From: Asterella californica
Taxonomy: Eukaryota; Streptophyta; Marchantiopsida; Marchantiales; Aytoniaceae
NCBI GenBank assembly: GCA_036924285.1
Contig: JAYKYS010000016.1
Span: 7,440,001 to 7,504,000 of the forward strand
Direction: 5' to 3'
DNA length: 64,000 nt
Shown here: piece by piece, positions 1-41,024 of the stretch
How the letters are laid out: every line of letters starts with the position of its first letter
Position numbering within the stretch: position 1 is the stretch's first letter
Program-made: the position numbers and the translations under genes
Notes under the pieces: generated by a model
Databases searched by the model: none
Told to the model about the DNA's origin: nothing
What the model saw: only the letters and a program-made list of their open reading frames with translations

Positions 1-471
1 GCTACTAGTTCTTAGCTATTGTTCTTAGCTACTAGTTCTTAGCTTTGGCTTTACCACTAGACGAAAACGGTGTCTTCTAAGAATACGTGCAAGTATTTAT
101 GGACTTGTTTGAGGTAGTAGGAGATCTTTTTGCACGTTCTTAGAGGAGTGGTAGGGCTACCCCATAATACTAGGAGGAAGTTTCCATTGCAGTAGTGTTT
201 GTTTATACCGTAGAGACGCGTATGAAGACAGTTGGTGACAGTTGTCTTGGGTGAGCTAGTAGAGCTACCACGTAGATACTTTTGGAGCTACTAGAGGTGT
301 GGACATCTAGTTAATGACCTTAGATACATGTTATGACAGTTGATCGTCATCTATTGTGCATGTGGTCATCGAAGAATATATAGGTGAGCTCAGTAGAAGC
401 GGGGTTAGGCAGATTGGTGTCACCTGTGGTGACGAGATTTTGACGATATGGTTAGAGCTTAGTGTTCGCAG

Positions 472-1341
472 TTGACACGGGTTGTCACCATTGAGGTCCA
501 CGGAGATTCTGACGGAGATTCAGCTGCAGTAAGCAGTGGGTCCACACGGAGTGGTGTGAGATACCAATCAGTAGCACCGGTCTCATCAGCGGAGAACACC
601 GAGTCAGACGAGGACGTGGTTGAAAGTACATATAGTGTGGTCATACCGTTGTTGTGGGACATGGACAAGATCTATGAGACCACGAAAAGACCTTGACGAT
701 ATTCAGATACGGTGGGTACCAATTGAGCTGGATGAATTCATACATGAGTTCGACCGTTGGTTCTATCTGTAGCAGATGCAAAACCCACAACTGTGTACAC
801 CCTTCATGACGTGGAAGGGTTCGTTTCAACACTTGGAGGGACCACCGATGGATGATTACCATGTGTTCAAGTGAGACTACAACGTGGAGACTGAGTTGTG
901 GAGACAACATTGATCTCCCAACTACGTTTCTATCACTATTGACGCAGTTTCGAGAGGCGTAGCATTTACGAGTTCGGGTGTCAGTAGATCCACCAGTGAC
1001 GGAGTATCTACTATCAGCGGTGCGTCCACTGGTAGTGGAGTAGGTGGTGGTATGAGCGAGATACCAGCAAGGTTTAACCTTGTGGTTCAGTTCTTCTAGT
1101 GTCTGAGGAAGAACTATCAGGGTGTGCGGACAGACAAGTTGAGGAGTTTGCAGGAGTTCCAACGGAAGACGAGAGAGAGCCTACGCGAGACGTTTACTCG
1201 CATGAGGCGGTTGATCAGTGTTACCCAAGGGGTATTGAAGCACAGGCGGTCTAGTTCTAGTATGGGATACTGGACTGAGAGATACGTAGGAGAATCAGAG
1301 ATGCGAATTCTCTCTAGAGACACCGCTCCGACGTTGACGGT
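472..1341 (+). pseudogene. gag fragment of element A (5' part)
   Basis: Decayed gag reading frame. Readable blocks include an acidic Ser-rich N-terminal stretch (472-696), the region matching the DDFIQEFD...WCDLQQMRNPQL block of element B gag (about 715-800), the block matching the WKGLFQHLEGP segment (about 810-850), a Ser/Gly/Thr-rich linker (about 960-1060), and the segment around LRSLQEFQ (1130-1210). Several stops and frameshifts interrupt it, for example TAG within the QFF segment near 1099. The family role would be capsid formation. Homology to the gag of elements B and C is direct; the function is inferred from position before protease in element B. It is broken at 1341 by the insertion of element B. 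Confidence 0.7.
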
Positions 1342-1958
1342 TGTCGTGCGCATACACATCGCTACACAACATACATCGTTGTCAGAGATACACCACACAT
1401 ACACATAACACATGGACGATGTCATACACATACACAAGTGTACCACAATAATCTGAATAGAGAAATTACCATATCCAACACTACAACAAAGATTACTCAC
1501 AAACGGTCAAGCCAAATCCACTCTAAGCACGAAGAGAATCCGGGTTACACTCAACTAGACTATCCACCATAGCCTGGAGCTTGAAGGCTCAACTCGAAGA
1601 ACTAAGGCCTCCAAGGCCTACCTGCGAAGTATACCCCAAGTGGGCTCTCTCACCAACTCGCCCCAACGGCACTAACGGCCTTACCGAGATGCGTCACTTC
1701 GCACTCGGTCAACCTAGCCGAGGTGCCAAACTGACGTGACAGCTGTCGTGCGCATACACATCGCTACACAACATACATCGCTGTCAGAGGTACACCACAC
1801 ATACACATAACACATGGACGCTGTCATACACATACACAAGTGTACCACAATCGTCCCCCTAACTGGCGATTAGGTCCCTCTAACTCCAGATAGCTCCATA
1901 TCCCAGTTACGTGATATACACCTTCATGGGTGTAAGGATCAGGAGGTCGAGTGCTACA
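1342..1958 (-). repeat. 3' LTR of element B, with internal repeated block
   Basis: On the minus strand it starts TGTAGCACTCGACC at 1958 and ends GCGCACGACA at 1342. It contains a module of about 290 bases (1450-1744), shared with 14512-14803, 15262-15548 and 40722-41024, flanked on both sides by copies of a block of about 105 bases (1342-1449 and 1746-1851). The whole arrangement is repeated in opposite orientation at 15058-15656. Which base truly starts the LTR is uncertain, because the other end of element B begins at the module itself. Confidence 0.65.
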
Positions 1959-3403
1959 TCGCTCCATCGTTAGTCGCCTATCTGCAATCCATACCACGCA
2001 AAGATCTAATCGGCTATCCCTGCTATATACATCGAGGACAAACCCACCGTCTAGTAGGAACGACATTGAGAGGTGGAGTCAAACATAACATGTGCCAACC
2101 TCTCGAACAACCATCACACACCAACATACGGGTTGCTCCACCAGCAGACCCACACAACATAAACCTCAAGCCCGCGCTGTCGGAGTGTGATCCGTCTACC
2201 TAGGAAAGCGCCGGGCTTCTGGCTGTGGTTGTTTACTCAAGAGGTTGGCTTTCAGGTCACAACAGGGGCTATAAACACTCACACATGTGTGTAGGATCCT
2301 CTAATATGCTCAAAAGCAAAATTTAGGTCTAACTAGCAGTAATAGATTTAAGCGGTGAACTTTGACACACAAAGAGAGGAAAACTATGAAGGTTTAGACT
2401 TCTAAACTTCCCCTACATGTAAATGAGGTACTACTGGACACACACACGAAGTTTCACCTTGAGATCAAATTCCAGCACTGAGATGTGGACAGAAAAGTTC
2501 TGAGTAAGAAAATTGTAGCAATTTTTGGTACCCAGATGGCTATTTCAACCTAGAACAGAAGATTGGCTCGATGAATTTCAAATATTCTCACAGTATTTGA
2601 AGTCTACAGGATGCTGAACATCCTTGTGAAGTTGGGACTCCTGAATGTACACAAAACTCCAGATCTCCTCCTCTGAAGTCGTTGCTCTAGATTAAGAGCT
2701 TTTCAGACCCCCTCAGCTTCAGCGGCCTCCTTGAATTACTCAGTCGCTCAATCGATATGAAACTTTTTGGGAAATCGTAGCCCTGCTGGCTGAGAACACA
2801 ACCTCAAAGTTTTGAAGCAATTTCCTCAAATCTGCTGCGAGTGACACTGAAAACCCTAAATCCAACAAAAGTGATTCAATTCTAGCACAATTCGAACTTC
2901 AAGTGGTCATAACTTCGTCTTTTTTACCTCAAATCGATCAAAAATTTCACTGGAAGTGCTTGGCATGACGAGCTCTATCTCCCTGTTTTCTCAGATTTCG
3001 AAGTTCTCTCCCCAATTGCTCGAAATCCACTCTAGAGCTCTGTTTCTAAACTTAGAGTTTTACAAAAGACAAAAATGAGAGTTCATAGCTCCACTTGACT
3101 GTCCTTTTGTGCCTTAAACTACCTGGTAACTTATCTACACTCATAAGCTACCACGTCAAGCCCCCTAGAGTGCCAGCGTAAAACTTAAACTACCTAAAAC
3201 GACATGCAGCCCCAAAAAATAACTTAAATCAGCTAGAAAGCGTGCATGGGTGACACGCAAATACAACCCATGAGCTTAAGCTCTATCAACATGATATATC
3301 AACCTACTAAGACTCAAAATAGTGTTAACATCGTATGCAAAGGTGTCAAACATATACATAAAGGACTAGAAGTAATATAAGCTAACTTCTAGAACTACTA
3401 AAC
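1959..3403 (-). other. 3' non-coding region of element B
   Basis: Lies between the integrase stop and the 3' LTR. I see no reading frame of note. It aligns with 36800-38200 inside element C over more than 1 kb, including the last integrase codons (about 3404-3450 against about 38150-38190). Directly next to the LTR the minus strand reads taacgatggagcga, only weakly purine-rich; the same bases precede the LTR at 15058, so this may be a decayed polypurine tract. Confidence 0.55.
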
Positions 3404-4550
3404 TCAAGCGTCGGAGTAGAAGTCAAGCATGTAGCCGCCAAGTAGCGCGACAGCGCGTACAACTGCTAAGCTTGGGTCAACGGTACCATCAATGTTAAGA
3501 AGATGACATGGCGTGCAATTACGCACATGGTCCTTCCACACAACACCATCACGGCCCTCTAACATGAGTACTCCAGAAGGTAACACCTCCCGCACTCGTA
3601 AACTAGTGCGTCTTGCGGTCACATCCAACGTCGTCAATGCGGTCTGCTGTAGATAGATATAATCGTCAGGATGAAACCTGCGAATCGACGGCCGATAACC
3701 TCCTCCTCGGATAGTCGCATATCGCAACGTGTCTCTATGCTGAGCAATCGCTAGGTTCTCAAAAGCCATAGGCATAACTCTCCGAAATGTCTCTGCTCGT
3801 TGAGAACATGCTCTCACCCACATATCCGGGTCATCAAGGTCCAACACCTCAGCAGAATCACGACGAATGACCGAAGGTAGATCTGGATCTCGACCATACA
3901 ATAGAAAGTATGGTGAGAAAGAAGCCAAAGACGCTTGCCGGTTAAAATGGTAACCCATAGCCAACCATGGTAATTGCACATCCCTGTCTCCCAAGTGACC
4001 CTTCTGCAAGCCATACTTGCGCAATCCTCTCTTCACCGTCTGAACTACCCTCTCCGCCAAACCATCCGCCTCAGGATGATCTCGAGATGTAGTCCGATGA
4101 TCAATCAGCGCTTGATCACACAAGGTCTGAAACTCACCAAGGAACTCTGTACCTTGGTCTGTCAGCACTTCAGCTGGTGCTCCAAAACGACTCAACACTT
4201 GATCTAAGAATGCGTACGCCGTCCCTTCACTCGTCTTGTCTGGTAATGCCACCAACTCAATCCACTTGGAGAAGTGCTCCACCATCACCAACACATACAT
4301 GTGGTGACCTAAGGTCAACAGTAAGGGTCCCGTAAAATCCAAACTCCAACGATAACCCAACCCCATAATCGGTAAGGGGTGTAACTATGGAGCAGGAGCA
4401 TTAAACGATGCTCGTACTCGATCACGAACCACACATCGTGCGACAAACTGTTGCACATCGACTTGCATGTCACGCCATCAATACTGTCTTTGGAGTAAGC
4501 TATGCGTACGCTTCACTCCAAAATGTCCCAACTCCTCATGGGCATGTCGT
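3404..4550 (-). pseudogene. Integrase of element B
   Basis: Retroviral-type integrase, which joins element cDNA to the host chromosome. The zinc-binding start is seen as H-A-H-E-E-L-G-H around 4505-4550, but the following CxxC reads CVVR (4424-4435), so one zinc ligand is lost. The catalytic core is clear in the 320-codon open stretch 3404-4366: SLDFTGPL gives the first Asp, VLTDQGTEF the second, and EADGLAERVV the Glu, with 34 residues between second Asp and Glu by my count. In-frame stops near 4475 and 4390 separate the zinc part from the core. The C-terminal part has the HVRNCTPCHL segment and ends at 3404 without a chromodomain or other added domain. Confidence 0.85.
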
Positions 4551-5365
4551 ACTAACTGTGCTCTCTGAGATGGATGTGGCACTATTCGTATCCTCGCATC
4601 ACCCCACACTCGAAGTACATGTCGTCCTTCTCGTCGAAATCTCTTCGCTCGTTGAAGGACACGACCTCGCTCCTTGGCACTTACTGTGCTTACTACCACA
4701 CCAGTACGTAGATACTCCATCACGGTCACATCATCATGGATATCTCGCTGGTCTGGAACACCATCTCCACCCTCAGGATCTGGAGACTCATCATCTATTC
4801 TCTGACCAGAGAAAGATACGACTTGGCCCTCCATACTAGAGTTAATGACCAACACACAAAGAAAGACAGTTGCATGCCACCCTGGCACTATCTCCTCATC
4901 AACCTCGTCATGCCATCGAGTCCCAGTCTGATCTTGCTGACTCGTGCACGGGTTGCGACTCAACCCATCGGCATCTAGGTTTGCAACTCCAGGTCTATGT
5001 ACTACCTGGAAGTCATACTCCTGTAAGATCAGAGCCCATCGTGCAAGCTTCCCTGTAAGCTTGTCGGACTCCATCAACCACTTGAGCGAATGGTGATCAG
5101 TGATGAGAGTAAAGGGGTTCTCAAACAGATAACATCGAAAGTGTGCAACAGCCCACACTGTCGTCAAGCACTCTCCCTCATACAAACTATACCTCACCTC
5201 CGTTGAATTGTTGGAGCGACTGACATACGCCACCATGAACTCCTTTTTCTCATCAGTATGCTGAGTCAGTACTGCTCCAAGTCTCAACATACTCCAATCG
5301 GTGTGCAGTTGGAAAGGACGCCCCCTAACGAGTCGCCTCAAGATGGGAGCTTTTGTAGAGCTCAA
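4551..5365 (-). pseudogene. RNase H and linker of element B
   Basis: Continues from the RT. Gypsy-type RNase H, which degrades RNA in RNA-DNA hybrids during reverse transcription. Visible motifs are HTDWSMLRLGAVLTQ (first catalytic Asp, around 5260-5302), YEGECL (catalytic Glu), TDHHSLKWL (second Asp) and the closing NLDADGLSR. A Glu-rich, poorly conserved linker follows, then the integrase zinc finger. The open frame runs 4478-5365 and overlaps the RT frame by 4 bases in another phase, so a frameshift lies at the RT/RNase H junction. Confidence 0.85.
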
Positions 5366-6448
5366 GGATAGGTTGACATCTGCTCCTGGTCCACCTTCAT
5401 CAGCTTGGTCAACGGCTTCGCAATTGCACTAAATCCCTTCACGTATCGACGATAAAAGTTCACCAAACTCACAAATGCTCGAACTCGACTCACATCTGTG
5501 GGACGTGAGATACGTGCAATAGCCTCAACCTTCATTTGTTGAACACCCAACCCACCTGGATAGATGGTGTGACCCAGATACTCTACCAACTCATGGAAGA
5601 ACTTACACTTCCCAACGTGTAACTTCAACCCATGAGCTCTCAACCGCTCAAACACATCCAATAAGTGTCTCTCGTGCTCCTCCACTGTAGCACTATAGAC
5701 TAAGATGTCGTCAATATAACATCTGACAAAATCCAATCTTGCTAGGATTCTGTCCATCACCCTTTGGAACTTAGCAGGGGCGTTCTTCAACCCAAATGGT
5801 AAGAACCGCCACTGATACAAACAATTCTTGCCGTGAGAGTCAATTCCTCAGAATGTTGTCTTGGACTTATCTTCTTCTCTCATTGACAACTGATGTACAA
5901 ACAATCCTTGCCGTGAGAGTCAATTCCTCAGAATGCTATCTTGGACTTATCTTCTTCTCTCACTAGCAACTGATGATACCCTGCTCGAAGATCCAAAGTA
6001 CTGAAGACCTTCACATGTCCCACTGCATCAAAGATCTTCTCAAGTGTCGGCATGGCATACTTATCGGACTTCGTCTGCCGATTGATAAGACGGTAGTCCC
6101 ACACATCCGTCTATCCGTGTAGTTGTCATACATATCCTTCTTGGCTGGCATAATTGTGGCAGATGCATACTCTCCATGCGACATCTCCACCAACCCAGCC
6201 TCCAACAAGTCTTGAGTTCGACTCTGCATCAAGGCTCTCTCCATGTCACTGTACCTGTAAGGACGTCGAAAGATTGACGTGTCATTAGCCAAGTCGATCC
6301 GTATACCAGGTCCTTTCAAGGTACCCAAATCTTTCATACTGAAGGCAAAACAATTCTTGTAGCTCTTCAATAATCTTTGGACTCTTCGTCTCTCCTCTCT
6401 TATAAGCTTGGGTCCAATCTCCGACTCCCAAGTATCCTCTGTCACCAT
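5362..6448 (-). pseudogene. Reverse transcriptase of element B
   Basis: Two pieces. The N-terminal piece (6011-6448) has the gypsy pre-motif and fingers region, with IRIDLANDTSIFRRPYRYS and EMSHGEYASATIMPAKKD, then runs out of frame near 6110. The C-terminal piece (5362-5820) has YQWRFLPFGLKNAPAKFQ, the catalytic YIDD (5707-5718) and the thumb with VEYLGHTIYPGG. Between them an 80-bp tandem duplication (5817-5976) shifts the frame, since 80 is not a multiple of three. The enzyme copies element RNA into DNA. It cannot be made as one protein from this copy. Confidence 0.85.
5817..5976. repeat. 80-bp tandem duplication inside the RT gene
   Basis: Two adjacent units of 80 bases, 5817-5896 and 5897-5976, differ at only a few positions (for example attcttg against atccttg). 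The duplication breaks the RT frame. Confidence 0.85.
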
Positions 6449-6449
6449 G

Positions 6450-6730
6450 CTAGAGGTAGAAGACGAAGTCGTTGACTGCTATCTTGCAGCCTCTGTGAGC
6501 AGTTTCCTTCTGCTCACCACCAACAACCTCCACCGCTACTGTGCGTAAAACTTTTGCAGTTCTAGCTGCAAGCTCCACACTCTTTCCTATGACATCCCAT
6601 GATGTCCAAGGATGACGAACTCCATGTGCCTCGCCCCCAGCCTTTGCCTCCACCGATCTGGTAGACACAGAGCTCAAGAGTGCTCGAGCAGTAATACTCG
6701 TCGATCGCATCCAACGCTGCTCAGCCAATC
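6450..6730 (-). other. Linker between methyltransferase and RT of element B
   Basis: An open frame of 92 codons with no motif I recognise (contains HPWTSWDVIGKSVELAART). It lies between the last methyltransferase motif and the start of the RT piece, so it probably belongs to the same polyprotein. Its end touches the RT frame at 6448. Confidence 0.5.
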
Positions 6731-7687
6731 CATGTCAAGCAATTCAAGTCCATTGCTTGACCCACTACTTGACGACGTGAAGCCTCCGACACCGAAGCTA
6801 CTGCCGTCGTACCCGTAGCGAAACCCATCGCTCGCTCTCTCTCATCGACATTGGACTCCACCAACTACCGTAATTGAGCATCCCATACAAGCCCAGGTCC
6901 TCCATCTCTGTAAGCATGTGACGCTGTAAAGCTTACCAAAGTAGGTAACGCTATCATGAGCCGTCCCACTAGGTTCACCACTGCCATGGGTGACTTATCA
7001 ACGACTCTCACTACTTGAGATTGTCGTCCTGCATCCAAGATGCTATCAATCGTGAGATGTGCTGGTCGTCTCACTCCATCGTGTGCTCGCTTAAGCACCT
7101 CTCTTGGTAACAAGTTCGTCCACCACAACCGTGGACGATGTGCACGAGATCCTACTCTTGCTGCATCCAACAACACTGCTGGTCCAACCCAAGACCGCAC
7201 TTGGTGCACACTCGTCATCATTTGTGTACGAGCATCACCCAACAAAAGAACGTTCTCCAAGATGTACGCTGGAGAATCCACCTGATGCATTTGGAGATGT
7301 CGTAAGATCCGTAACATCTCTCAGAACATCCTAGATCGCGGGTCATGTAAACCCTGACCTCTCCAAGCACGCATTGTCGTGTTGTGAGACGTCCCACATG
7401 TGAATTCAGTGTAGAACGGGTGTTGTGTTTTCTTTGTGTTCGGTGAACCTTTTGTGTAGTTCGCATAAGAGGGTATTAGGTGTCACGTTCACAGAGATCT
7501 GGATGTGAGATCGCACGATAACAAGATGTGTCGACTCAATGATCCGTGAACGTTCGCGTGAATGGCTCTTGTTGTCAAACATAGGTATAAGATAGTGGGT
7601 TGGGGGTTTGGGAGGCATTCTTCTTTGGGGTAGTTTTCATGAGTGTGTCTTACGTGATAATAAGAAGGAGCGGCAAGTGTTGTATTC

Positions 7688-7903
7688 ATGGATGGAGGAC
7701 TGAATCGAGTTCCAAATCTACCATTTCCGAACCCGTTTCATATCAAGCTTCACTTGATCCACCGCGATCACTTTCGACAGTGGTTCGTCGTCTACTTTGG
7801 AGAAGAGTTCATGGGAAGGATGATGGACTCGCCTACTCCGGTGATCTTACCAATCGTCACGTATGGAGAGGGCTGGGACTTGACAGTGTACATCTTACTT
7901 TGA
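7688..7903 (+). CDS. Small ORF, first FGEE repeat
   Basis: 71 codons starting MDGGLNRVPNLPFPNPFH. Not recognised. It contains W-F-V-V-Y-F-G-E-E-F followed by M-x-S-P-x-P and a hydrophobic end. The next small ORF (7913-8116) is in the same frame after TGA plus three codons and repeats the same pattern, so both may once have been one protein with two similar domains of about 60 residues, now cut by a stop. It lies in the block inserted into element B. It may be a retroelement protein; I assign no function. Confidence 0.4.
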   Translation: MDGGLNRVPNLPFPNPFHIKLHLIHRDHFRQWFVVYFGEEFMGRMMDSPTPVILPIVTYGEGWDLTVYILL

Positions 7904-7912
7904 CGAGGACCA

Positions 7913-8116
7913 ATGGACCTGAATTATCCAGCCAACATCCCTTTCAACGTATGGGTGGATGTTCGATGTCACTTTCGGCGGAAGATCAATCATCGTGCGT
8001 GGATCGCAAGGAACTTTGGGGAGGAGTACTGTAATCAAGTGATGGCTTCTCCATTTCCTTTTGTAGTACCTTTCATCGTAAATCGGTTCCAGGTCGTCAT
8101 CTTGACCTTGTACTGA
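7913..8116 (+). CDS. Small ORF, second FGEE repeat
   Basis: 67 codons starting MDLNYPANIPFNVW. It shares with the preceding ORF the pattern R-x-W-x4-F-G-E-E-[FY], then M-x-S-P-x-P and a Val/Ile-rich end. It has the same frame as 7688-7903, with nine bases between the stop of the first and this ATG. Not recognised. About 1.2 kb of non-coding sequence follows to the end of the insertion. Confidence 0.4.
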   Translation: MDLNYPANIPFNVWVDVRCHFRRKINHRAWIARNFGEEYCNQVMASPFPFVVPFIVNRFQVVILTLY

Positions 8117-10332
8117 ATCTTAAGTATTGAGTATGATCTCTATAGTTCGACGAATGTAATTAACCTAAGGTTGGGGCCGATGCCTTGAAGGCATGAGAGG
8201 ATAGTAAGGTTATAGTTGTTCTAGGGTACCAAGTAGAGGACAAAAGAGGTTTTCAGATCTGTTTTCTTATTGGTCTATTTTCGACCAATCAACGCCATTC
8301 CAGATCTGCAGACGGCTTTAGGGTTTTGGAGGTCTTCCCGAGGGGCATTTGAGGAGTGAGTGGTCTTGTTGGAAAGCTCTCGAGACGGGCTACACTCTGG
8401 AGACAAAGATCAGGCGATTTGGAATTCTGAGGAGAGAGTGATGGACGTTGAAAGTTAGGGGGGTCAAATCAGTACCCCGAGCCACGTTTTGGAGTTATCC
8501 GGGAGTTTGAGAGGTGATCTTTAGGAGCTGTCAAGGGGATCGAGTAGTTCACTCCGTGCTGGTTGTATTGATGTAAAACAATCATACATTTGGGTTGGAT
8601 TTGCTCCTGAAATGATCGATTGAAGTTGGCTGTTACAGTTGAGAGGTATGAGTAAAACCGCTTTCTTTGGATTCAAAGCTTGAGTTGCTCCGTGCACATG
8701 GGATTGGATCTCTGAGTGAAACTTTCCAGGATGAGAGTGTGCCCTATCAGCTAGTCACATGTGAAATTTCAGTTCAATTGGGTAAGAGAATGTGTGGAGA
8801 TCTAGGATTTTGGCCATCGAGATCTGTAAAGCTCAGAAGTTAGCACAGGCGGGTGGCTTGATTCATCGCGGACAGTTGAGGGTCAGATCTGAGACTGAAA
8901 TTTCATACAGTAGTAGAGAAGGGTCAGAGGGGGTGTCCTGTGAGGTTTGAGCCTGATTGGATAATCGAGGTGAAGGCACGAGATTGTCAAAGTTCAGTTT
9001 GCAGCGAGGCGAGAAAGACGTAGAGAGATTTTGCTTAAATCTCTTGGTTGGAGTTGAACAAAAACGACTTGAAGATGGGAGGTGTGCTTCTTGGAGGTGT
9101 CGTGTGGATGACAAGGAGGCTGTATTGTGAGATTGGTACGGCGATCACGCTCAGTGGAGGTGCCACGTCTTGCTGAAGCTGAGGTACCGTTATCCTCGGT
9201 ATCACGCCCCGAGTTTCTAGCTGTTTTGCTGCCGATATGTCTTGTATCGTTGGGAAGCTTGTGTAGTAGACGGTCCTTGCTGTGGACATCTTCCTGAGCA
9301 AACTCGTATCAGCGAACAATAGAAGGTCAGAGTCTACAATTAGGTAGTTTGTCGAGAAGAAGTAGTGAAGCGTATGTGGATGAGAGATTGTATGAAGAGT
9401 GCTTGGGATCTAAAGCAGACACGTACCGTGTATGAGCCTTGCCTTTATCTAGAGTGGAATCGAGCTCCGAGTCATTTGTGTGATGCACATGTGCTACACT
9501 CGGGTCAAGTTAGCTCGCTAGTAACCTACAAAAAAGACTGATAGATTAGATATTGAGAGCATAAGTTTTCATCGGTTAGGTCGTAGATCCAGTTGTATCT
9601 CTCTACAGCCAGATATCCCGTGTATTCCCAGACCATATTTCACGCCCTACGAACAGCGTGTGACCTTGACATGGCCATCCGGCTATCACCAAGTGTATCG
9701 TGCCCACAAACGTAAGATCCTGCGCCCCCAGCAGCGAAATATCCGACGATAATGCTTGCTGGTATCCTCTAACAGCTGATATGAGCAACAACTCAGAAAT
9801 CTCTGCACCAAACGTGCCACATGTTGCAATGAGATGCGTCTCGCAATCTCATCTCTCTCCACATACAAGTATCGCTGTACTTGTATACCTGCCTGCAATA
9901 TCGCAACCAAACTTGTGCTGATCTCTCCAAACAGCTCCAACACACATACACCCTCTTCTGGATACTGCCGCACAATGAGAGTCGTATCCAACGGTGATAA
10001 GGTCACAAGGCCAGTAGCAGGAACAACCCTTTGTTCCTCTACTGGTGGTACAAAGGCTTCACTCCAAGCCTACTGCACCAACTGATTAGCATACTGCTGC
10101 AACTCTCCACTCGAACTCCAGAGTGAAACATCCAAGGCAGATGGTACTAACGTAGACATGCTAGGCATGTCCTCCACCTCCTCAAAGATCAGAGCATCCT
10201 CCGCATGGACATTGCCCTCCAACAACTCGTCCGGCCAAGTGATCACCGAACTGAACCTTGCAATGGATGCCATCGTCCCTGGTGTAGACTCCGTCGTCCC
10301 AACTCTAGCACTGAATCGCACTGGTAAGCGGC

Positions 10333-10720
10333 TCACTCGTCCCTCATCGGAGTGCCAACCTGGTCTATAAGATGATGTTCCGTCCAATAGTCGATCACGA
10401 ACCCCATAGGGTATAACATAGCACCTCCAACCAATACATCATAAGACTCTGCGGCTGTAACGATGGTCTTGGCCCTCACCATAGAGCCATCCGTGGGATG
10501 ATCCGATCGAACTCTCACCGTCAACATCTCACGTGTCATGTGTAGAGCCGTACCTCCTGATCCCCCTAGAGATGTCTGCAATTGGAATGGACATCTCTCC
10601 ACCTCGGACTTCTTTAGACCCAAACCAATACACGTCGTCTTTTCCAACATCATCGCTTGGGCTCCAGAGTCTAACAAGACCTTCTGGTCGATACACTTTC
10701 CTTGAAGGTGTCACCAACCA
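10333..10720 (-). pseudogene. Aspartic protease of element B
   Basis: Retropepsin that would cut the gag-pol polyprotein. The active-site motif VLLDSGAQAMM lies near 10655-10685, with the catalytic Asp at 10669-10671. The family's second hydrophobic block is seen as YDVLVGGAMLYPMGFVIDYW (about 10395-10455). It follows a Ser/Ala-rich gag-pro linker (10720-11113) in another frame, and leads into the linker before the methyltransferase. The parallel copy in element C is at 35870-36180. Confidence 0.75.
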
Positions 10721-11129
10721 GAAGATACCACTTCTGTTGTCGAACAACACCACACCTGGTGCCAAACCAGCACGGTCAATCGCCGGCCTAGCTGGTAACT
10801 CATCTAACCTAGCAGCTGCCGTTTGCCAAGTACCACTGGTAGCTGTCCTGATCCTCGACTCCATGGACACGTCTACCGCCTCTCGTTGAACTACTTCAGC
10901 ACTAGAGGTAACTACATCCTCGCTCTCACTGAGCGTGGCCGCCAACTGGAACACTGGAGCCAAGTTGACTCCCAATGCCCTCATATCCGTGGCTGAGAAT
11001 AGTGAGGCTCGCAAAACTGCTGTAGCCGCCCCCAACATTGGGTTCGACGTCGCATCCACAGATGTCGAAGGTGGACTCACATCACAACCACTCCTGGATG
11101 TCGATGCCTCCAACTCTACTGCACCATCG

Positions 11130-12732
11130 GTAGGTCATTTAGGAACCATAGATGTGGTCCTCAACGCCTCCGATAACGTGAACGACTGGGGAAGCCTGGT
11201 CTGTCTACCAGCCTCCCCGTGTTGTAGATCCAACTCCACTGACGCACCTCGTGGCTCAGAGGCACGTACTGCACCTCTAGTCACTGCCGCAGATGTCTTA
11301 ATCTGCACCACACCAGCCATGAAGTCGAAGTCACTTCCTTCTCCTCCATAAGACGTGGAAGCCTCTGTTCCGCCTTATCTCCGCTGAGCCATAGCCATAC
11401 TAGCTATCCTCTGCTCCAACTGCTCAATCCGAGCAGCCATACCTGCTTCTGACGTCGTAACAGGCGGTGGACCGACCGGTCCTCTCCTAGGTGCTGGACC
11501 TCTACCTCCAGCTCGACCACCACGGCCTCCCTGAACTCCTCCGCCTCGTCCACGATCAGCCTTCCCTTGCCGCAACTCGAGATGGAGGTCAAAACTACGA
11601 TCACTACTGTGACCTGGTCGTCCGCAATGCTCACATTGCCTAGGTACTGCTTGAGACGTCCCTGACATCTCATAATCTCTCCTCTGTGGACAGTCCTTTT
11701 GCTGATGAGGACCATCACATGTCCAGCAAGGACCCGCTTGCTACTGACTAGAGAAAGACGGCATGGGCTTCTGCCCACCAGATCCTCCAACACCTCCCTG
11801 AGATCGTGACTGCTTCGCACGATCCTTACCACCACCACCACCACGCTATTGCGTAGCCTGTGATCCTCGAGAAGAGGTGGTCACTCCATGTGGTGTCTCC
11901 TTGCTGAACCCAGCAACCACCACCCTCTCTTCCACCATGTTAAGCTCAATACGCTCAGCCAGACCAAAGATAACCGTCAACGTCGGAACGATATCTCTAA
12001 GGAGAGTAGCATCTCTAACTCTCCTACGCAGCTCTCGGTCTAGTATCCCATATCAGAACTGGACTGCCTGTGCTTCCGTCACCCTTTGGGTAACGCTGAT
12101 CAACCACCTCGAGTAAACGCCTCGCGTAGGCTCTCTCCAGTCTTCTGCTGGAACTCTTGCAGACTCCTCAAATTGTCGGTCTGCACACCCTGATAGTTCT
12201 TCCTCAAACATTGGAAGAACTGAACCACAAGGTTAAACCCTGGTGGTATCCCGCTCACACTACCACCTGCTCCACTACTTGTGGACGCACCGCTGGTAGT
12301 AGGTACTCCGTCACCTGTGGATGTACCACTGCTACTGGCATCCGAACTCGCAGGTGCTACGCCTCTCGAAACTGCACCAGTAGTGATAAAAACGTAGTTG
12401 GGAGACCAATGTTGTCTCCACAACTCGATCTCAACACTGTAATCTCGTCTGAACTCATGATAATCGTCCACCAGCGGTCCCTCCAAGTGTTGGAACAAAC
12501 CCTTCCACGCCATGAAGGGTGTAAACAGCTGTGGGTTCCGCATCTGCTGCAGATCGCACCAACTGTCAAACTCCTGGATGAAGTCATCCAGCTCAATGAT
12601 ACCAACTGTACCCGAGTAACGTCGAGGCCCCTTCGTGGCTCCATAGATCTCGTCCATGTCCAACAACAATGACGACACTAGACTCACCATCAGAAAACGC
12701 GCTGTCTGCGTATGACTCGTCCTCTGAAACAA
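11130..12732 (-). pseudogene. gag of element B with two zinc knuckles
   Basis: Structural protein of the element. The N-terminal open stretch (12100-12732) contains IELDDFIQEFDSWCDLQQM and WKGLFQHLEGPLVDDYHEF, then a Ser/Thr/Gly linker and LRSLQEFQQKTGESLREAF. Downstream, in changing frames, come a first knuckle CWTCDGPHQQKDC (about 11690-11735), a second knuckle CEHCGRPGHSSDRS (about 11590-11635) whose last Cys has become Ser, an Arg/Gly-rich segment typical of nucleic-acid binding, and a short possible coiled coil around MAARIEQLEQRIASM (about 11400-11445). Stops interrupt it near 11850 and elsewhere. Homologous gag pieces lie at 472-1341, 14804-15036 and 38311-39000. Confidence 0.75.
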
Positions 12733-14511
12733 CCGACGGCAATGGTGTAGGTAGTCGATATCTCATTCCACTCCGTGTATACCTACTGTCCGAGAAGTCT
12801 CCATCAGAACCTCCCGAGAACTCCGTGATGAGAGAATCTCGCTAACACACTCCCCAACCGGAAGTCGCAATCTCCGTCACAACCGTAACCACCACTTGCC
12901 TAACCCCGCTCCTACTGAGCTCACCTATCCCCTACTAGGACAGTCAAGGTAAGGACAACTGTACCTGCCATCACCACAGGCAGCCTCTCACGGTCTGTTG
13001 GTCGTCACTCCAACCACACCGTGAGAGAGATAAAGATAGTCTGACTGGTCCGCAACTCCAGTCTCACTACCGACAGCACACTGGAGTGAACTCACTCCAG
13101 AAATCAAGCGCCAACACAAGCAAACGCGGCGCACAAACAGGAAGTAGAATATGGAGGGGTTCCAACCACAACAAGTCCAACGATAACCCTCCACACTCAA
13201 ACATTCACATAAAGAGAAACCCAGCCCCACTCGGACTGACGTCTCCTCGTCGGTGACCACATGCACAATATATGGTCACCAACTGTCATAACTGACACTG
13301 GAGGTCACTAACTAGATGTCCACACCTCTAGTAGTTCCAAAAACATCCACGTGGTAGCTCTACTAGCTCACCCAAGACAACTACCACCAATTGTCTCTAT
13401 ACACGTCTCTACGGTATACGCAAGCACTACCACAACTATAGCTTACCCCTAATACTATGAGGTCGTCCTACCACTCCTCTAGGAACGTGCGAGAAGATCT
13501 CCTACTATCTTATACAAGTCCATAAGTACTTGCACGCATCCCTGTAGGACACCAAGAGCTATTGGTCTAGTGGTAAAGCCAAAGTTAAGAGTCCAGGTCC
13601 AGGAATAGTGTTGGGATGGGTGACCAGCTGGTTTTACACTTCCCACACAACTGGATACCTCTCTCACGCACGCACGCCAGCAAGCTGGCTTGCGGCGGGC
13701 GCGGGCTCAGGCTCAGCTCCGCTCTGCCTCCGCACTCACGCACCTTTGCTCCTCGAAGCCTCTACACGCACTCCACACCTCGACACTCCCGTTCACTCTC
13801 CGCTCCGCTCCGCTTGCAGTAGAGTAGAACAGGTACAACACACCACAAGAGACTCGGTTCTTCCTCGAATTGCAGAAGATTGCACCAAAAGAGGCTCCAA
13901 AACAGCAAAAATAGCTTGCGGGTGCACACGGGTAACCAAAATCTGACGTAAAACAGCAAGAACACCCAAAGCCAACCCGAACACCACCACAACAGATTCA
14001 CAAATGCACCATACACACTTCGCGAATGCACACACAGACAAGACAACTCCTAACTCGAGTTTCCGCACGAAATTGCATCAAAATCTGACGTAACTAGCCT
14101 TTTTGTACTTTCGGGTGACACGGCAGCGAACTTCGACATGCCATAACTTCTTCAATCCTTGACCAAACTCCATGTAACTTAGTGCACTATAATTGTCTCT
14201 CCAATGCGCTTCCAAAGAGCCCACTCCGGCCTGACATTGACAAGTACTCCGTCTGCCACGCCCAAACACGCAATCCGGCTCCAACAAGTCACTTCAAGAA
14301 CATTCTGCAAAGTTTCTGCAGCGCTTCCGCATGACAGAAATCTCCACTCGACCCCAACAACAACAAATAGATCTGCGACCAGCAATTTAGCATGCGCCCA
14401 CACACCTCGAAGCTCCAAACAATCAAGCACGAACTGCAACGTCCGAAGATACCAGCGGACGATTTCAGATCAGCGGGTTCTTACTGACGATCTGCACTCA
14501 GTTCTTCGAGT
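12733..14511 (-). other. 5' leader of element B
   Basis: Non-coding, moderately GC-rich sequence between gag and the LTR-like end. It aligns with 39000-40720 in element C and partly with 1-471 in element A. 13640-13830 is rich in CGC/CTC. It holds the 5S rRNA-like segment. I find no standard methionine-tRNA primer site; the primer site is unresolved. Confidence 0.5.
13582..13631 (+). repeat. 5S rRNA-like internal promoter segment in element B
   Basis: Read on the plus strand (antisense to gag), AAGTTAAG...GGATGGGTGACC over 13582-13625 aligns with no gaps to the A-box-to-C-box part of plant 5S rRNA as I remember it, 32 of 44 positions by my count. The C-box core GGATGGGTGACC is exact. The 5' half of 5S rRNA is not recognisable. 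A related copy is at 39839-39888. 5S-derived promoters in retroelements are known from Cassandra TRIMs and SINE3; whether this one still drives Pol III is unknown. Confidence 0.65.
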
Positions 14512-14803
14512 AATCTGAATAGAGAAATTACCACCTCCAACACTACAACAAAGATTACTCACAAACGGTCAAGCCAAACCCACTCTAAGTACGAAGAGAA
14601 TCCAAGTTACACTCAACTAGACTATCCACCATAGCCTAGAGCTTGAAGGCTCAACTCGAAGAACTAAGACCTCCAAGCCCTACCTGCGAAGTATACCCCT
14701 AGTGAGCTCTCCCACCAACTCGTCCCAACGACACTAACGGTCTTACCGGGATGCGCTACTTCGCACTCAGTCAACCTAGCCGAGGTGCCAAACTGACGTC
14801 ACA
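14512..14803 (-). repeat. Terminal module at the 5' end of element B
   Basis: About 290 bases, starting on the minus strand TGTGACGTCAGTTTGGCACC at 14803 and ending near TTCTCTATTCAGATTA. Near-identical modules lie at 1450-1744 and 40722-41024 in the same orientation, and at 15262-15548 inverted. At its outer edge the gag of element A resumes. The inner flank differs from that of the 3' LTR. Confidence 0.7.
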
Positions 14804-15036
14804 CGGTTGTCTCTGGTCTAGCCGAGCGGATTGAGCTCAACATGGTGGAGGAGAAGGTGGTGACTGCTGGGTTCAGCAGGGAGGCACCACATGAGACGAC
14901 CATCTCTTTTTGAGGATCACAGGCTACGTAATAGCGTGATGGTGGTGGTGGTAGAGATCGTGTTGAACAGTCACGATCCCAAGGACGTGATGGACAGAAG
15001 CCCATGCCGTCTTTCTCTAGTCAGCAGCAAGCGAGT
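14804..15036 (+). pseudogene. gag fragment of element A (continuation)
   Basis: Picks up gag exactly where 1341 stopped. It matches, inverted, the element B gag at about 11745-11965 (plus-strand text ggtctagccgagcggattga against ggtctggctgagcgtattga). It runs through the His/Gly-coding GGTGGTGGTGG stretch and ends at ctttctctagtcagcagcaagcg, just before the first zinc knuckle. From 15037 it is joined to the sequence upstream of the LTR, which marks an internal deletion. Confidence 0.7.
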
Positions 15037-15057
15037 CTTTGCATAACGATGGGGCGA

Positions 15058-35046: not shown

Positions 35047-35560
35047 GACAAATTCACTTGATGCATCTGGAGATGTCATAAGATTCTTAACATCTCTCAA
35101 AACATACTAGATTGTGGATCATGTAAACCTTGACTTCTCCCAGCACGCGTGTGATCCTGACATGACCACTCGATTATAATCATGTGAATGATGTCAACAA
35201 TCGTGAGATCTTACGCCCTCAACAGCGAAATATTTGATTGTAATGCTTGTTGGTATCCTCTAACAGCTGATATGGACAATAACTCAAGATATCTCTGCAC
35301 CAAGCGTGTCATATGACGCAACGGATGCATCTCGTAATCTCATCTCTCTTCACATACAAGTATCGTTATTCTTGTATGCATGCCTGCAATACCGCAATCA
35401 AACCTGTGCTGATCTCTCCAAACAGCTCCAGCACACATACACCCTCCTCTGAATACTATCACACAATGAGAGTCGTATCCAACGATGATAAGGTCACAAG
35501 ACCAATAGCAGGAACAACCCTTGGTTCCTCTATTGACAGTACAAAAGCTTCACTCTAAGC
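35047..35560 (-). pseudogene. Methyltransferase remnant of element C
   Basis: Aligns with element B at 7280-7372 and then directly with 9656 onward, without the 2.28-kb block. It shows that the uninterrupted family sequence runs from the catalytic Cys motif straight into the next methyltransferase motif. In this copy the Pro codon before the catalytic Cys has changed (GGATGGCC in B, agtggtcatgtc here). Stops are frequent. It ends within the domain. Confidence 0.65.
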
Positions 35561-36180
35561 CTGCTGTACAAATCGATCAGCATACTATTGTAACTCTCCA
35601 CTCGAACTCCAGAGTAAAACATCCAAGACAGATTGTATTACCGTAGTCATGCTAGACATGTCCTCCACCTTCTCAAAGATCGGAGTATTCTCCGCATGGG
35701 CATTGTCCTCTAACAACTCGTCTGACCAAGTGATGACCGAACTGAACCCTACAACTGATGTCATCGTCTCCGGTGTAGGCTTCGTTGTCGCAACTCTAGC
35801 ACTGAACCGCACTAGTAAACGACTCACTCGTCCTTCATCGGACTGCCAACCTGGTCTGTAAGATTCTGTCCTCGTCCAATAATGGATCACGAACCCCATA
35901 AGGTATAACACAACACCTCCAATCAACACATCGTAAGACTCCACGGTCGTAATGATGACTTTGATCTTCACCATAGAGCCATCTGTGGGATGATCTGGTC
36001 GAACTCTCACTGTCAGCATCTTGCACGTCATGCGTAGAGTTGTACCCCCTAATCCTCCTAGAGATATCTGCAGCTCGAATGGACATCTCTCCACCTCGGA
36101 CTTCCTTTGATCCAAACCAATACACGTCGCCTTCTTCAACATCAATGGTTGAGCTCCAAATCTAACAAGACTTTCTGTAG
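35561..36180 (-). pseudogene. Linker and protease of element C
   Basis: The readable frame 35585-36145 contains KSEVERCPFELQISLGGLGG, a YDVLIGGVVLYLMGFVIHYW block like that of element B, and the linker with YRPGWQSDEGRVSRL and ITWSDELLEDN. The active-site region (about 36150-36180) is changed: the minus strand no longer reads a clean DSGA. It aligns with 10080-10700. Confidence 0.65.
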
Positions 36181-36765
36181 TCGATACACCTTCCTTGAAG
36201 GTGCCACCAAACAGAAGATACCACTTCTGTTGTCTAACAACACCACACCTCGTGCCAAATCAGCACGGTCAATCGTCGGCCTAGCTGGTAACTCATCTAA
36301 CATGGTAGTCGTCGCTTGTCAAGTACCACTGATAGTTGTCTTTGATCCTCGACTTCATGGACTAATCTATCGTCTCTCGCTGAACCACCCCAACACTAGA
36401 GATAACTACATCCTCGCTCTCACTGAGCGTGACTGCCAACTGAAACACTAGAGCCAAGCTTACTCCCAATGTCATCTTATCTATGGCTGAAAATAGTGGG
36501 ACTCAGAGAACTGCTATAGTCACCCTCAATTATCGAGTTTGACGTCGTATCTACAGACGTCGAGAGTTGACTTGCATCACTCCACTCCTGGATGTCGATA
36601 CTTCCAACTTCACTGCATCATCGGTAGATCGTTTAGGAGCCATAGACATTGTCCTCAACGCCTCCGATAGCGTGAATGACTGAAGAAGCCTGATCTGTCT
36701 ATCAGTCTCCTCGCGTTGTGGATCCAACTCCACCGACTCACCTCGTGGCTTAGAGACACGTTGTC
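36181..36765 (-). pseudogene. gag-protease linker of element C
   Basis: Aligns with 10700-11265 of element B (Ser/Ala-rich linker and gag end). No domain. It stops at 36765, at the border of the out-of-place block. Confidence 0.5.
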
Positions 36766-38310
36766 GAGGTGAGAGTTTCTTGAGAAGGGTGGAACCTTCT
36801 GGCTGTGATATGACTGTGAAGAATATATATGTCTACTGAAGGAAGCGTTGGGCTTCTAGTTGTGGTTGCTAACTCAAAGGGGTAGGCTTCATGTAACAAG
36901 GTGGCACTGTAAAACACTCATACAGGTCTCTTGGCTCCTTCTGATATGTTCAGGAAATGAAAAATCAAGTTGAACTAGTAATGATAAGATCAGACGGTGA
37001 ACTTTGACACTCAGGAATAAGAAATATGTGAAGGTTTAGACTTCTAAACTTCTCCTACATGTAAAAGAGGCTCCACTAGACACACACACTAAGTTTCAGC
37101 TTGAGATCAAATTCTAGCACCGAGATGTGGACAGAAAAGTTCTGAGTAAGAAAATTACGACAAATTTTAATACCCAGATAGCTATTTTGACCTAGAACAG
37201 AGAATTGGCTTGATCACTTTCGATGATTCTTACAAGATTTGGAGTCTACAGGATGATGAACGTCTCTGTGAAATTTGGCCTCCTGATTGTACACAGTTCT
37301 CTAGATCTCATTCTCTGAAGTTGCTGCTCTAGATTAAGAGTTTTTCAGACCCCCTCTGCTTCACCAGTCGCCTTGAATTACTCACTCACTCAAATGACTT
37401 GAAACTTTTTGGACAGTCGTAGCCCTGTTGACAGTGAACGCAACCACGAAGTTTTGAAGCGATTTCTTCAATTCTGCTGCAATTGACACTGAAAATCCTA
37501 AAATCAACAAAAGTGATGCAACTTTAGCACAATCCGAATTTCAATTTGGCATAACTCATTCTTTATTGCTCCAAATCGATCAATAATTTTATTGACAGTG
37601 ACAAGCACAACGAGCTCTATCTTCTTGTGCTCTCAAATTTTATAGTGTCCTCATCAAATGCTCGAACTCCTCTTTAGACAAAAGAGGAGTTCGAGCATAC
37701 ATAGTTCGAGCATGTTTTTCTACAAAAAACAAAAATGGATTAATGGGAGTTCATAGCTCCACTTGGTTGTCCTTTAGTGCCTTAAACCACGTGGTAACTT
37801 AACTTCACTTGGAAGCTACCACGTCAGCCCCCTAAAGTGTCAACGTAAATCTTAAACTATCTAAAACGACACGCAACCCTGAAAGATAACTTAAACCAGT
37901 TAGAAAGCGTGCATGGGCGATAAGTAAATACAACCCATGAGCTTAAACTCTATCAACATGGTAAACCTAAGTTATGTACTTTGAACATCAAAGACAAGTA
38001 TGAATTCACTTGCACAAGCGTACGAATGCTTCAACAAGATAAATAGCATACTATCAACCTACTAGGACTCAAAACATATAACACAACGGTGTTAACATAT
38101 GCATAAAGGACTAGGAGTAATATTAAGCTAACTTCTACGACTACTAACTCTCAAGTGTCGAAGTAGAAGCGTAACACGTAGCCGTCAATGCTCACAACCT
38201 CCAGAATCGACTTCTCTTACGTCTTAACTTCACCCGGAAAGACTAACTCCTGACAGAGAGATGAATTATTCACTATGTGAAATGATTCACATCACGTCAA
38301 AATATTGCAC
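36766..38310 (-). other. Integrase-end plus 3' region block inside element C
   Basis: Matches 2215-3450 of element B, that is, the last integrase codons and 3' non-coding region, yet lies between two adjacent parts of gag. Its minus-strand upstream end (38200-38310) and downstream end (36766-36830) have no match in B. A perfect 17-base inverted repeat (37659-37675 and 37681-37697, loop agaca) is extra compared with B. No clean target duplication is seen. Confidence 0.6.
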
Positions 38311-39000
38311 TCCGAGTCACTGCTGCAGATGTCTCAATCTACACCACACTAGTCATGAAGTCGAAGTCAACTCCTTCTCTTCCATAAGACGCGGAAGCCT
38401 CTGTTCTTGAATCATATCTCCGTTGAGCCATAGCCATACTAGTTAAGTTGAACTGGAAGAACTGAACTACAAGGTTGAACCATGGTGGTATCTCGCTCAT
38501 ACTACCACCTGCTCCACTACTAGTGGACGCACCGTTGATAGTAGATACTCCGTCACTCGTGGGTGTATCACTGTTACTGACATCCAAACTCGTAGGTGCT
38601 ATGCCTCCCGAAACTACGCCAGTTGTGATGGAAACGTAGTTGGCAGATCAATGTTGGCTCCACAACTCAATCTCCATGTTGTAGTCTCGTCTGAATTCAT
38701 GGTAATCGTTCATCGGTGGTCCTCCAAGTGTTGGAACAAACCATTTCAAGTCATGAAGGGTGTGAACAGCTATGGGTTTCGCATCTGCTGCAGATCGCAC
38801 CAATTGTCAAACTCTTGGATGAAGTCATCTAGCTCAATGATACCCACCGTATCCGAGTCTCGTCGAGGCTCCTTCGTGGTTCTATCGATCTCGTCCATGT
38901 CCAACAACAACGATGTGACGACACTAGACTCACCACCAGAAAACGCATTGTCTGCGTCTGACTCGTCTTTTGGAACAACCGATGACAATAGTGTATGTGG
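38311..39000 (-). pseudogene. gag of element C, internally deleted
   Basis: Contains DMDEIDRTTKEPRRDSDTVG, IELDDFIQEFDNWCDLQQM and the Gly/Ser linker with IPPWFNLVVQFFQ, as in element B. Near 38447 it jumps from the MAMAQRR segment to the VVQFFQ segment, about 800 bases of B being absent, which removes both zinc knuckles. Confidence 0.7.
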
Positions 39001-40721: not shown

Positions 40722-41024
40722 AATAATCTCAACAGAGAAATTATCATCTCCACAATGCCCTCAAGGTGACAACGATTACTCACAAAACGGTCAAGCCAAA
40801 CCCACTCTATCTCCGTAGAGAATCCGGGTTACACTCAACAAGACTATCCACTATAGCCAGGAGCTTGAAGACTCAACTCGAAGAACTAAGGTCTCCAAGT
40901 CCGACCTGCGAAGTATACCCCCTAGTGGGCTATCTTAACAACTCGTCCTAACGGCACTAACGACTCTACCGGGATTAGCCACTCCGCACTCGATCAACCT
41001 AGCCGAGGTGCCAAACTGACGTGA
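40722..41024 (-). repeat. Terminal module of element C
   Basis: Minus strand starts TGTCACGTCAGTTTGGCACC at 41024. Same module as 14512-14803, with the same type of inner flank (ttgaagaactcagtg). The outer flank, from 41025, is unrelated sequence. Confidence 0.65.

Follow-up and report, generated by a model that had tools for sequence, protein, structure and literature searches.

The window, a stretch of 64,000 nucleotides from Asterella californica, carries on its minus strand a dead Ty3/gypsy-type element with a built-in C5 methyltransferase. The element is flanked on both sides by CGGT (1338-1341 and 14804-14807) and encodes, in this order, Gag, protease, C5 methyltransferase, RT, RNase H, integrase and a PHD finger (Table 1); its insertion target was an internally deleted copy on the opposite strand. 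The copy is dead because one insert of 2283 bp splits the methyltransferase and another of 1275 bp severs the PHD finger. The former, which opens a gap downstream of AGWPCQGHT, is absent from the second family copy of the window (empty site 35147/35148) and also from the genomic copy serving as yardstick, and the larger part of the latter is similar to positions 36831-37963 of the window. The RT is damaged by an 80-nt tandem duplication (5816-5975) and a short inverted stretch (5347-5386). An Rfam scan of the window gave no match at gathering scores.

An earlier note, based on the sequence alone, had read positions 6700-10006 as a C5 methyltransferase between protease and RT, and this span does correspond to the methyltransferase region, the 2283-bp insert included. 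The minus-strand translation contains every motif quoted there, in the order given and on the strand that also encodes gag, protease, RT and integrase: LFGEISTS at ~9.93 kb, AGWPCQGH at 9.68 kb, ILENV at 7.26 kb, AHRPRLWWTNL at 7.14 kb, DERERAMGF at 6.85 kb and QAMDLNCLTWI at 6.76 kb. They are spread over three frames, with an extra stop in the last one, and form no single ORF. The loss of function of this copy, the UAG, the split repeats and the PHD finger described below go beyond that note.

Clear Pfam matches were obtained in the window pieces for rve, RT_RNaseH and RVT_1. For DNA_methylase the window pieces gave no match even at E ≤ 1; two open ORF1s of copies from the same genome matched PF00145 with 35.4 and 35.9 bits (cut-off 22), so that the lack of an HMM match, which the earlier note had named as a refutation, did not come about. 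Used alone as query, the central methyltransferase piece retrieved 189 proteins at E ≤ 1e-3, the best at 2.7e-63. In this genome's ORF1 neither Gag nor protease had a Pfam match, both calls resting on motifs and alignment; some relatives aligning with the focal protease stretch matched PF13650/PF13975. Locus L002 also matched PF00145, yet no clear gene was seen there.

Table 1. Features of the focal element and of related copies in the window
Feature	Position	Strand	Basis or remark
Focal element	1342..14803	minus	5' end 14803, 3' end 1342; repeats and direct reading
Repeat A1	14511..14803	minus	5' terminus; starts TGTGACGTCAG on the minus strand
gag open stretch	12103..12762	minus	alignment with ORF1 of genomic copies; without Pfam match
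Protease open stretch	10333..10677	minus	LLDSGAQ motif and alignment with relatives
Methyltransferase N-terminal piece, motif I region	9689..10006	minus	translation
Open stretch with IAGWPCQGH (motif IV)	9606..9698	minus	family homology stops at 9656
2283-bp insert splitting the methyltransferase	7373..9655	.	comparison with other copies
Methyltransferase central piece (ILENV, AHRPRLWW)	6868..7320	minus	translation and protein search
Methyltransferase C-terminal piece (DERERAMGF, QAMDLNCLTWI)	6724..6864	minus	translation
UAG, then CAG TCA	6479..6481	minus	between ORF1 (Gag-PR-MTase) and ORF2 (RT-RNH-IN-PHD)
RT region, broken	5365..6478	minus	Pfam and alignment
RNase H and integrase H2C2	4481..5428	minus	Pfam
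Integrase open stretch (rve)	3407..4384	minus	Pfam
1275-bp insert between integrase and PHD	2178..3452	.	comparison of copies
PHD finger, AGLRFMLCGSAGGATRMLVCDGCSRGWHMLC...	2026..2175	minus	alignment with PHD of genomic ORF2
Repeat B1	1744..1851	minus	repeat comparison
GC spacer, B1 to A2	1742..1743	minus	direct reading
Repeat A2	1449..1741	minus	repeat comparison
Repeat B2, 3' terminus	1342..1449	minus	repeat comparison
Second family copy, older and rearranged, without the 2283-bp insert	35051..41026	minus	alignment
Left part of the internally deleted opposite-strand copy	33..1345	plus	resumes 14804-15656

Copy number, selection and affinity of the methyltransferase

Genome-wide, 694 sites coding for AGWPCQGH and 692 exact B-GC-A element joints were counted, with no hit for the reversed-pattern control in either search, and these motif counts point to a family of hundreds of copies. 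On contig C1 the exact active-site DNA was found at 4.0-4.7 kb for 28 of the 69 joints and within 20 kb for 38 of them, so that many copies are without the exact motif, some by decay. Family members lacking the domain had been named as a possible refutation, which was not borne out: eight motif-less copies of C1, picked by eye for the UAG context ~3.4 kb before the joint and the absence of the exact motif, turned out to be decayed or interrupted. One of them is missing ~386 nt of the domain and two are broken by unrelated sequence; in the remaining five the domain persists, altered or carrying stops. On the basis of these eight copies a clean methyltransferase-free subfamily was rejected.

In ten copies picked for an open ORF1, which form non-independent pairs, dN/dS was 0.18 (0.15-0.18) for the methyltransferase, 0.16 for the protease and 0.22 for gag, with 0.43 for the neighbouring linker and 0.82 for the tail. 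This showed that in the sampled copies the methyltransferase is under purifying selection comparable to that on the protease. Their ORF1 encodes Gag, zinc knuckles, protease and methyltransferase; a PHD match in Pfam was obtained for one genomic ORF2, and the same PHD sequence occurs in five ORF2s and in the focal copy.

The C5-methyltransferase motifs I, IV (Cys), VI (ENV), VIII (RxR) and X are present in this order. The catalytic fold and motifs are shared with animal DNMT3A/DNMT3B and with plant DRM, whose motif order, however, is rearranged, unlike that of the element enzyme. Compared with DNMT1/CMT, DNMT2, DRM or bacterial enzymes, DNMT3 is the closest group, and the best solved relative is DNMT3A, by sequence and by fold. 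The enzyme is thus placed with DNMT3 on both grounds, with a putative de novo methylation activity. ADD and PWWP domains had no match in the two genomic ORF1s scanned.

Relatives and domain orders

The order protease-methyltransferase-RT was also found in Marchantia and Closterium, with Sphagnum as partial models; the arrangement proposed in the earlier note holds for the focal copy and is a family trait. Predicted proteins of Marchantia polymorpha (e.g. Mp_4g09160, Mp_6g11220) are likewise PR-MTase(-RT) polyproteins, with 74% identity across 99% of the 199 residues of the window used as query, and the Mp_6g11220 model is without the active-site Cys. They are named hypothetical protein in the source, and Uncharacterized, CCHC-type domain or DNA (cytosine-5...) in UniRef; the literature searched holds no description of them as an element. 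A second related group, which includes chlorophytes, has the order RT-MTase-integrase: Haematococcus lacustris, Monoraphidium neglectum and many metagenome proteins carry related methyltransferase, RT and integrase, often with a PHD finger, and in this group the methyltransferase follows RNase H, whereas here it follows the protease. Since related versions occur in both streptophytes and chlorophytes, the enzyme may have joined the element long ago.

In the methyltransferase tree, whose length filter removed five of 138 long proteins (Sphagnum P0140 is among those missing) and in which five of the other 133 belong to no order group, the copies of this genome group with Marchantia; the closest named relatives are from liverworts, and a land-plant affinity is likely. 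The different position of the enzyme, PR-MT-RT in one group and RT-MT-IN in the other, could also mean that related DNMT3 enzymes were captured twice independently rather than once with a later relocation, and the trees, which were quick ones with SH-aLRT support alone and a taxon set without a methyltransferase-free gypsy outgroup, leave room for it. Nevertheless, the methyltransferase and RT trees each separate the two orders on one branch (support 99 and 100), the distances of the two domains are correlated (r 0.95 for 12 elements and 0.51 for 83; 0/999 shuffles), and a PHD finger lies behind the integrase in both groups; we regard two captures as somewhat less likely than one.

The UAG stop and the split repeats

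ORF1 and ORF2 share one frame with a single UAG between them, and a frameshift was therefore rejected. The sequence UAG-CAG-UCA was present in all ten sampled copies with ORF2 in frame behind it, open through its end in five, and in the sampled copies the frame 3' of the UAG encodes RT, RNase H, integrase and the PHD finger. Among 100 sites listed of 944, the codon preceding the fixed CAGTCAACGAC was TAG in 95, TAA in four and AAG in one. UAG-CAR-YYA is a leaky stop context. The UAG would mostly terminate ribosomes and sometimes be read through, which would make Gag-PR-MTase the majority product and Gag-PR-MTase-Pol a minority; the enzyme would be packed into particles at Gag-like amounts and could methylate new cDNA before or during integration, and the PHD finger may direct the integrase to chromatin. 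Placing a methyltransferase before a leaky-type stop predicts a high dose in the particle. An enzyme placed in this way, upstream of a UAG together with Gag and followed by in-frame RT-IN, appears undescribed in the literature searched.

The large amount of enzyme expected from production on the Gag side would also suit a methyltransferase whose main substrate lies in trans, either host DNA or RNA (with a role in packaging or RNA stability), rather than element cDNA, and RNA methylation was raised as an option for a LINE enzyme (de Mendoza et al., PMC5890265). However, the DNA enzymes DNMT3A/3B stand closest among solved structures, DNMT2-type RNA enzymes having far lower scores, and we consider a main action in trans rather unlikely.

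The repeats are arranged as A-coding-B-GC-A-B, with A1 alone at the 5' side and B1-GC-A2-B2 at the 3' side, in six of ten fetched copies and in the focal one; two identical full LTRs around the coding part were not found. In these six, A1 and A2 are 98.6-100% identical; the A1/coding border is constant in six copies, and the A2|B2 joint is variable, its main form being common to 10 of 18 copies. A PPT-like TTAGGGGGGCG is near-constant upstream of B1 in seven copies, with one variant, GGGGAGCG. The element ends are TG...CA, the joint is the palindrome GACA-GC-TGTC, and among 21 copies examined the 4-bp target duplication was exact in 13 of the 14 with both ends found and agreed at three of four bases in the other. 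This combination of split repeats, TG...CA ends, 4-bp duplications and palindromic joint appears undescribed in the literature searched. No primer-binding site starting TGG was seen directly after A1, so that LTR-type priming is putative.

From these repeats and joints we infer LTR-type reverse transcription, circle joining and then an integrase cut within the repeat. The genomic RNA would run from part of A1 through the coding region, PPT, B1 and GC to part of A2 and would be reverse transcribed with B-GC-A as the repeat unit; circularisation would link the cDNA ends at an imprecise A|B joint, and the integrase would cut the palindrome inside one repeat and insert with a 4-bp duplication, the cut inside the repeat giving the split order. 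That this amounts to a distinct mode, in which LTR-type cDNA is circularised and integrated from an in-repeat palindrome rather than from LTR ends, each provirus is permuted and a Gag-level DNMT3 methylates its own circle, is put forward tentatively.

Split direct repeats of the A-coding-B-A-B type are the DIRS order, noted also for KnitGypsy-Dnmt3 (PMC5890265), and could reflect DIRS/PAT-like circular replication to which the DDE integrase is incidental. The RT-RNaseH-integrase order with rve is that of Ty3/gypsy, as are the short target duplications and TG...CA ends; the tyrosine recombinase without target duplication that marks DIRS elements was not found, the ORF2 part scanned (L028:3-2612) having rve and H2C2 and no tyrosine-recombinase match at E ≤ 0.01. 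A DIRS/PAT-like cycle is hence unlikely, and the pairing of a DDE integrase with split repeats offers a concrete model for the origin of a DIRS-like repeat order without a tyrosine recombinase.

Catalytic residues and known retroelement methyltransferases

Among 130 rows assigned to a domain order, two of them from the Asterella californica genome, the active-site Cys is present in 128 and the ENV Glu in all. The Pro of the PC motif is replaced by Glu in 11/40 and 65/90 rows of the two orders and PCQDH was seen in one of ten sampled copies, as might be expected of a catalytically idle protein kept as a structural or DNA-binding part; this is unlikely, given that Cys, ENV Glu and RxR are almost invariant across highly diverged elements and that dN/dS is as low as reported above. 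No match was found between viral contigs and P0143. That a host methyltransferase gene was inserted or captured by chance in a single copy, to which the broken window copy with foreign sequence in the domain might point, is hardly credible and was rejected, as the insert sits inside a methyltransferase that is itself at the same place in relatives, the active-site motif recurs at hundreds of sites, Marchantia and Closterium share the order, and the host DNMT3-like gene L001 stands apart from the element enzyme on a very long branch. As a whole, mechanism included, the best explanation, which we consider probable, is that the window copy belongs to a large, recently active Ty3/gypsy-type family with a DNMT3-type methyltransferase.

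DNA methylation normally targets retrotransposons. The present enzyme may methylate the element's own DNA; this could silence the element in a methylation-maintaining plant and so speaks against any simple gain for a selfish element.

The earlier note was correct in stating that retroelements with captured methyltransferases had been reported, and the kind is already known: KnitGypsy-Dnmt3 of Klebsormidium nitens is a Gypsy element with a non-rearranged, DNMT3-type methyltransferase, Gypsy domains in a DIRS-like repeat order and Ka/Ks < 0.2, whose enzyme gave no methylation in yeast, a result its authors judged inconclusive (de Mendoza et al. 2018, PMC5890265). The present family is a large variant of it, sharing the DNMT3 in Gypsy, the DIRS-like repeats and purifying selection; documented here are ~700 motif sites, the UAG between methyltransferase and RT, the PHD finger, the 4-bp duplications and the palindromic joint. 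The name K. nitens was absent among the matches listed (120 of 189; 30 of 30; 120 of 137). SymbioDIRS-Dnmt3 (PMC5890265) also combines a DNMT3 enzyme with A-coding-B-A-B repeats but has a tyrosine recombinase, in contrast to the DDE integrase and target duplications found here. The distribution suggests that the union of methyltransferase and element extends beyond the one charophyte example found in print, and the retention of a DNMT3 across many copies of one family allows a test, in relatives of a model liverwort, of why an element would methylate itself.

Layout and decay of the focal element

The focal element, a Ty3/gypsy-type copy on the minus strand at 1342-14803, opens at its 5′ end with A1 and a leader, followed by gag, a zinc-knuckle linker, protease and the methyltransferase; beyond the UAG come RT, RNase H, H2C2, integrase and a PHD finger, and B1-GC-A2-B2 closes the 3′ end, A and B being the split repeats. 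Pfam matches within the window identify RT, RNase H, H2C2 and integrase; gag and protease (LLDSGAQ) are putative assignments by motifs and alignment. Every methyltransferase motif quoted in the earlier note was found, in the order claimed, when reading the minus strand.

This copy is dead. Its RT also contains a short inverted stretch, and its identity to the genomic copy used as alignment reference, inserts and RT damage aside, is 93-95% over most of the length, falling to 88% in the 5′ kilobase. The second window copy and one genomic copy are uninterrupted at the site of the 2283-bp insert, which shows a flank duplication of at most about 2 nt and contains a 147-aa plus-strand open stretch with no Pfam match. 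By sequence similarity, one repeat seems to have inserted in both the focal and the second window copy.

Features of the focal element and of the second family copy, in window coordinates
Feature	Coordinates	Location or relation	Evidence
Insert, 2283 bp	7373-9655	After AGWPCQGHT in the methyltransferase	Alignment with other copies
Insert, 1275 bp	2178-3452	Parts integrase from PHD finger	
Tandem duplication, 80 nt	5816-5975	Within RT of the focal copy	
PHD finger	2026-2175	End of the integrase polyprotein; also in ORF2 of genomic copies (family locus L028:3-2612)	
Second family copy	35051-41026	Has a 1.5-kb interruption similar to 2194-3441	

The focal element splits an older family copy on the opposite strand into the plus-strand stretches 33-1345 and 14804-15042, which follow on from each other in that copy, and CGGT flanks the focal element on both sides. 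The element is thus nested (1338-15656) in a member of its own family that carries an internal deletion. Elsewhere in the window, minus-strand open stretches at 24832-25428 and 55484-55903 gave Skp1_POZ and Usp matches and are perhaps host gene exons.

Taking a young copy as the ancestral state, with no outgroup, C-to-T type changes in the focal copy were most frequent at CHG (9.7%), followed by CG (6.7%) and CHH (5.1%), with A/T transitions at 2.1%; two other window copies gave 22-25, 12-13 and 11-15% for CHG, CG and CHH, respectively. The CHG bias is compatible with CHG methylation of silenced copies by the host; the pattern shows no CG-dominated mark and gives no argument either way on whether a CG-specific enzyme acts on cDNA.

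Abundance, constraint and the UAG stop

The gypsy element with a built-in methyltransferase proposed from the window proved real and widespread. In the genome (516.7 Mb, 773 contigs, including the window), AGWPCQGH-coding DNA occurs at 694 sites, the exact B-GC-A joint at 692 and the stop-context pattern at 944, with 0 sites for each reversed-pattern control. A PF00145 profile search of the genome gave 123 scored matches among 1250 candidates, all over the cut-off; a few are host-like (e.g. L001), and 16 have open frames of 1367-1381 aa. The locus L001 (1267-2646) is a host DNMT3-like gene, probably of at least two exons (SLFDGMGG, GFPCQDLT, AENVASM). On one contig, exact active-site DNA lies at the expected distance for 28 of 69 joints and within 20 kb for 38; eight copies there lacking it were read, and the domain is kept with changes or stops in five, partly lost in one and interrupted in two.

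Ten copies were fetched for their long open frame, a non-random choice from which their open ORF1 (Gag-PR-MTase, 1367-1381 aa) follows. Nei-Gojobori counts pooled over pairs of these copies gave dN/dS of 0.22 for gag, 0.25 for the zinc-knuckle linker, 0.16 for protease, 0.43 for the PR-MTase linker, 0.18 for the methyltransferase and 0.82 for the tail. The constrained stretch coincides with the methyltransferase domain; over five copies, ORF2 gave 0.10 and the methyltransferase 0.15.

ORF1 ends in TAG followed by CAGTCA in all ten, RT continues in the same frame, and in five of them no further stop interrupts ORF2. UAG-CAR-YYA is a leaky-stop signal of tobacco mosaic virus. Among the 100 sites listed of the 944 with the stop context, the codon preceding CAGTCAACGAC is TAG in 95, TAA in 4 and AAG in 1, the search fixing CAGTCAACGAC itself, so that variation of CAGTCA is invisible to it. 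Among 23 related proteins having PR and MTase without RT, 19 end 80-175 aa past the methyltransferase, as read from proteins and not DNA (exceptions P0129, P0146, P0150 and P0213); PR-MTase is fused to RT in P0143, P0151 and P0184 of Closterium.

Split repeats and integration

Six of the ten fetched copies have the structure A1 (294 nt)-coding-B1 (108)-GC-A2 (294)-B2 (108), totalling 9.8-10.0 kb; A1 was not detected within the fetched stretch of the other four, one of which has B1 and B2. The termini are TGTCACGTCAG...GCGCACGACA, and GACAGCTGTC, at the internal joint, forms a palindrome of 10 bp. In a sample of 21 copies, made up of the focal element, the ten fetched and another ten located through their ends, both ends were present in 14, with an exact 4-bp target duplication in 13 and three of four bases in one. 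A purine-rich tract adjoins B1 in seven copies and the A1/coding border is invariant in six; a primer site was looked for and none was found. The A2/B2 joint is variable: among 18 copies, ten have the main form (one with a base change nearby), two an extra base, two filler, three with another A end have differing joins, and in one it is missing from the expected place. We infer that a linear (B-GC-A)-coding-(B-GC-A) molecule would have its ends joined imprecisely, giving the variable joint, and that integrase would then cut at CA/TG inside the repeat, a scheme matching the observed joints.

Relatives and novelty of the family

With the central methyltransferase piece as query, 189 proteins were retrieved, Calypogeia fissa and Marchantia paleacea being among the names in the 120 listed. 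Long-protein searches added Marchantia polymorpha and Sphagnum fallax and, in the best 120 of 137 matches of a further search, Closterium, Haematococcus lacustris, Monoraphidium neglectum and many metagenome proteins. P0149, a family polyprotein labelled as a Minisyncoccia bacterium MAG, clusters with Monoraphidium and is probably a binning contaminant.

In 138 long proteins, the methyltransferase stands before RT, or after PR only, in 42, and after RT in 90; six are unassigned. A single branch parts the two orders in each tree, that of the MTase (136 rows) with support 99 and that of RT (98 rows, no outgroup) with support 100; both are quick trees with SH-aLRT support only. The two rows of the Asterella californica genome cluster with Marchantia in the MTase tree (support 98-99). 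The active-site PC is mostly EC (GWECQ) in the RT-MTase-IN group (65 of 90), and 11 of 40 rows in the other group have EC as well. Two separate captures behind the two orders are conceivable, and we regard them with some doubt; MTase distances correlate with RT distances across elements, and both groups, like this genome, have a PHD finger 3′ of integrase, which is absent from P0184 and P0143. One capture and one relocation of the methyltransferase fits the two orders.

Passages of PMC5890265 describe Dnmt3 within a Klebsormidium nitens Gypsy element having DIRS-like repeats, and the word "Marchantia" is absent from its main text; passages of PMC12344493, which name Copia and DIRS, restate this for both streptophytes and dinoflagellates, and those of PMC9033089 and PMC9985172 hold nothing on methyltransferase-bearing elements. 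No report of bryophyte elements of this kind, nor of the UAG stop, was found in the open-licence literature searched. Dnmt3 in a Gypsy element with DIRS-like repeats is common to KnitGypsy-Dnmt3 and the present family, and the Asterella californica family is a variant of an already known kind of element. As far as the open-licence literature searched goes, three things would be new: the bryophyte-type family, a stop by which the enzyme falls on the Gag side, and split repeats combined with DDE integration.
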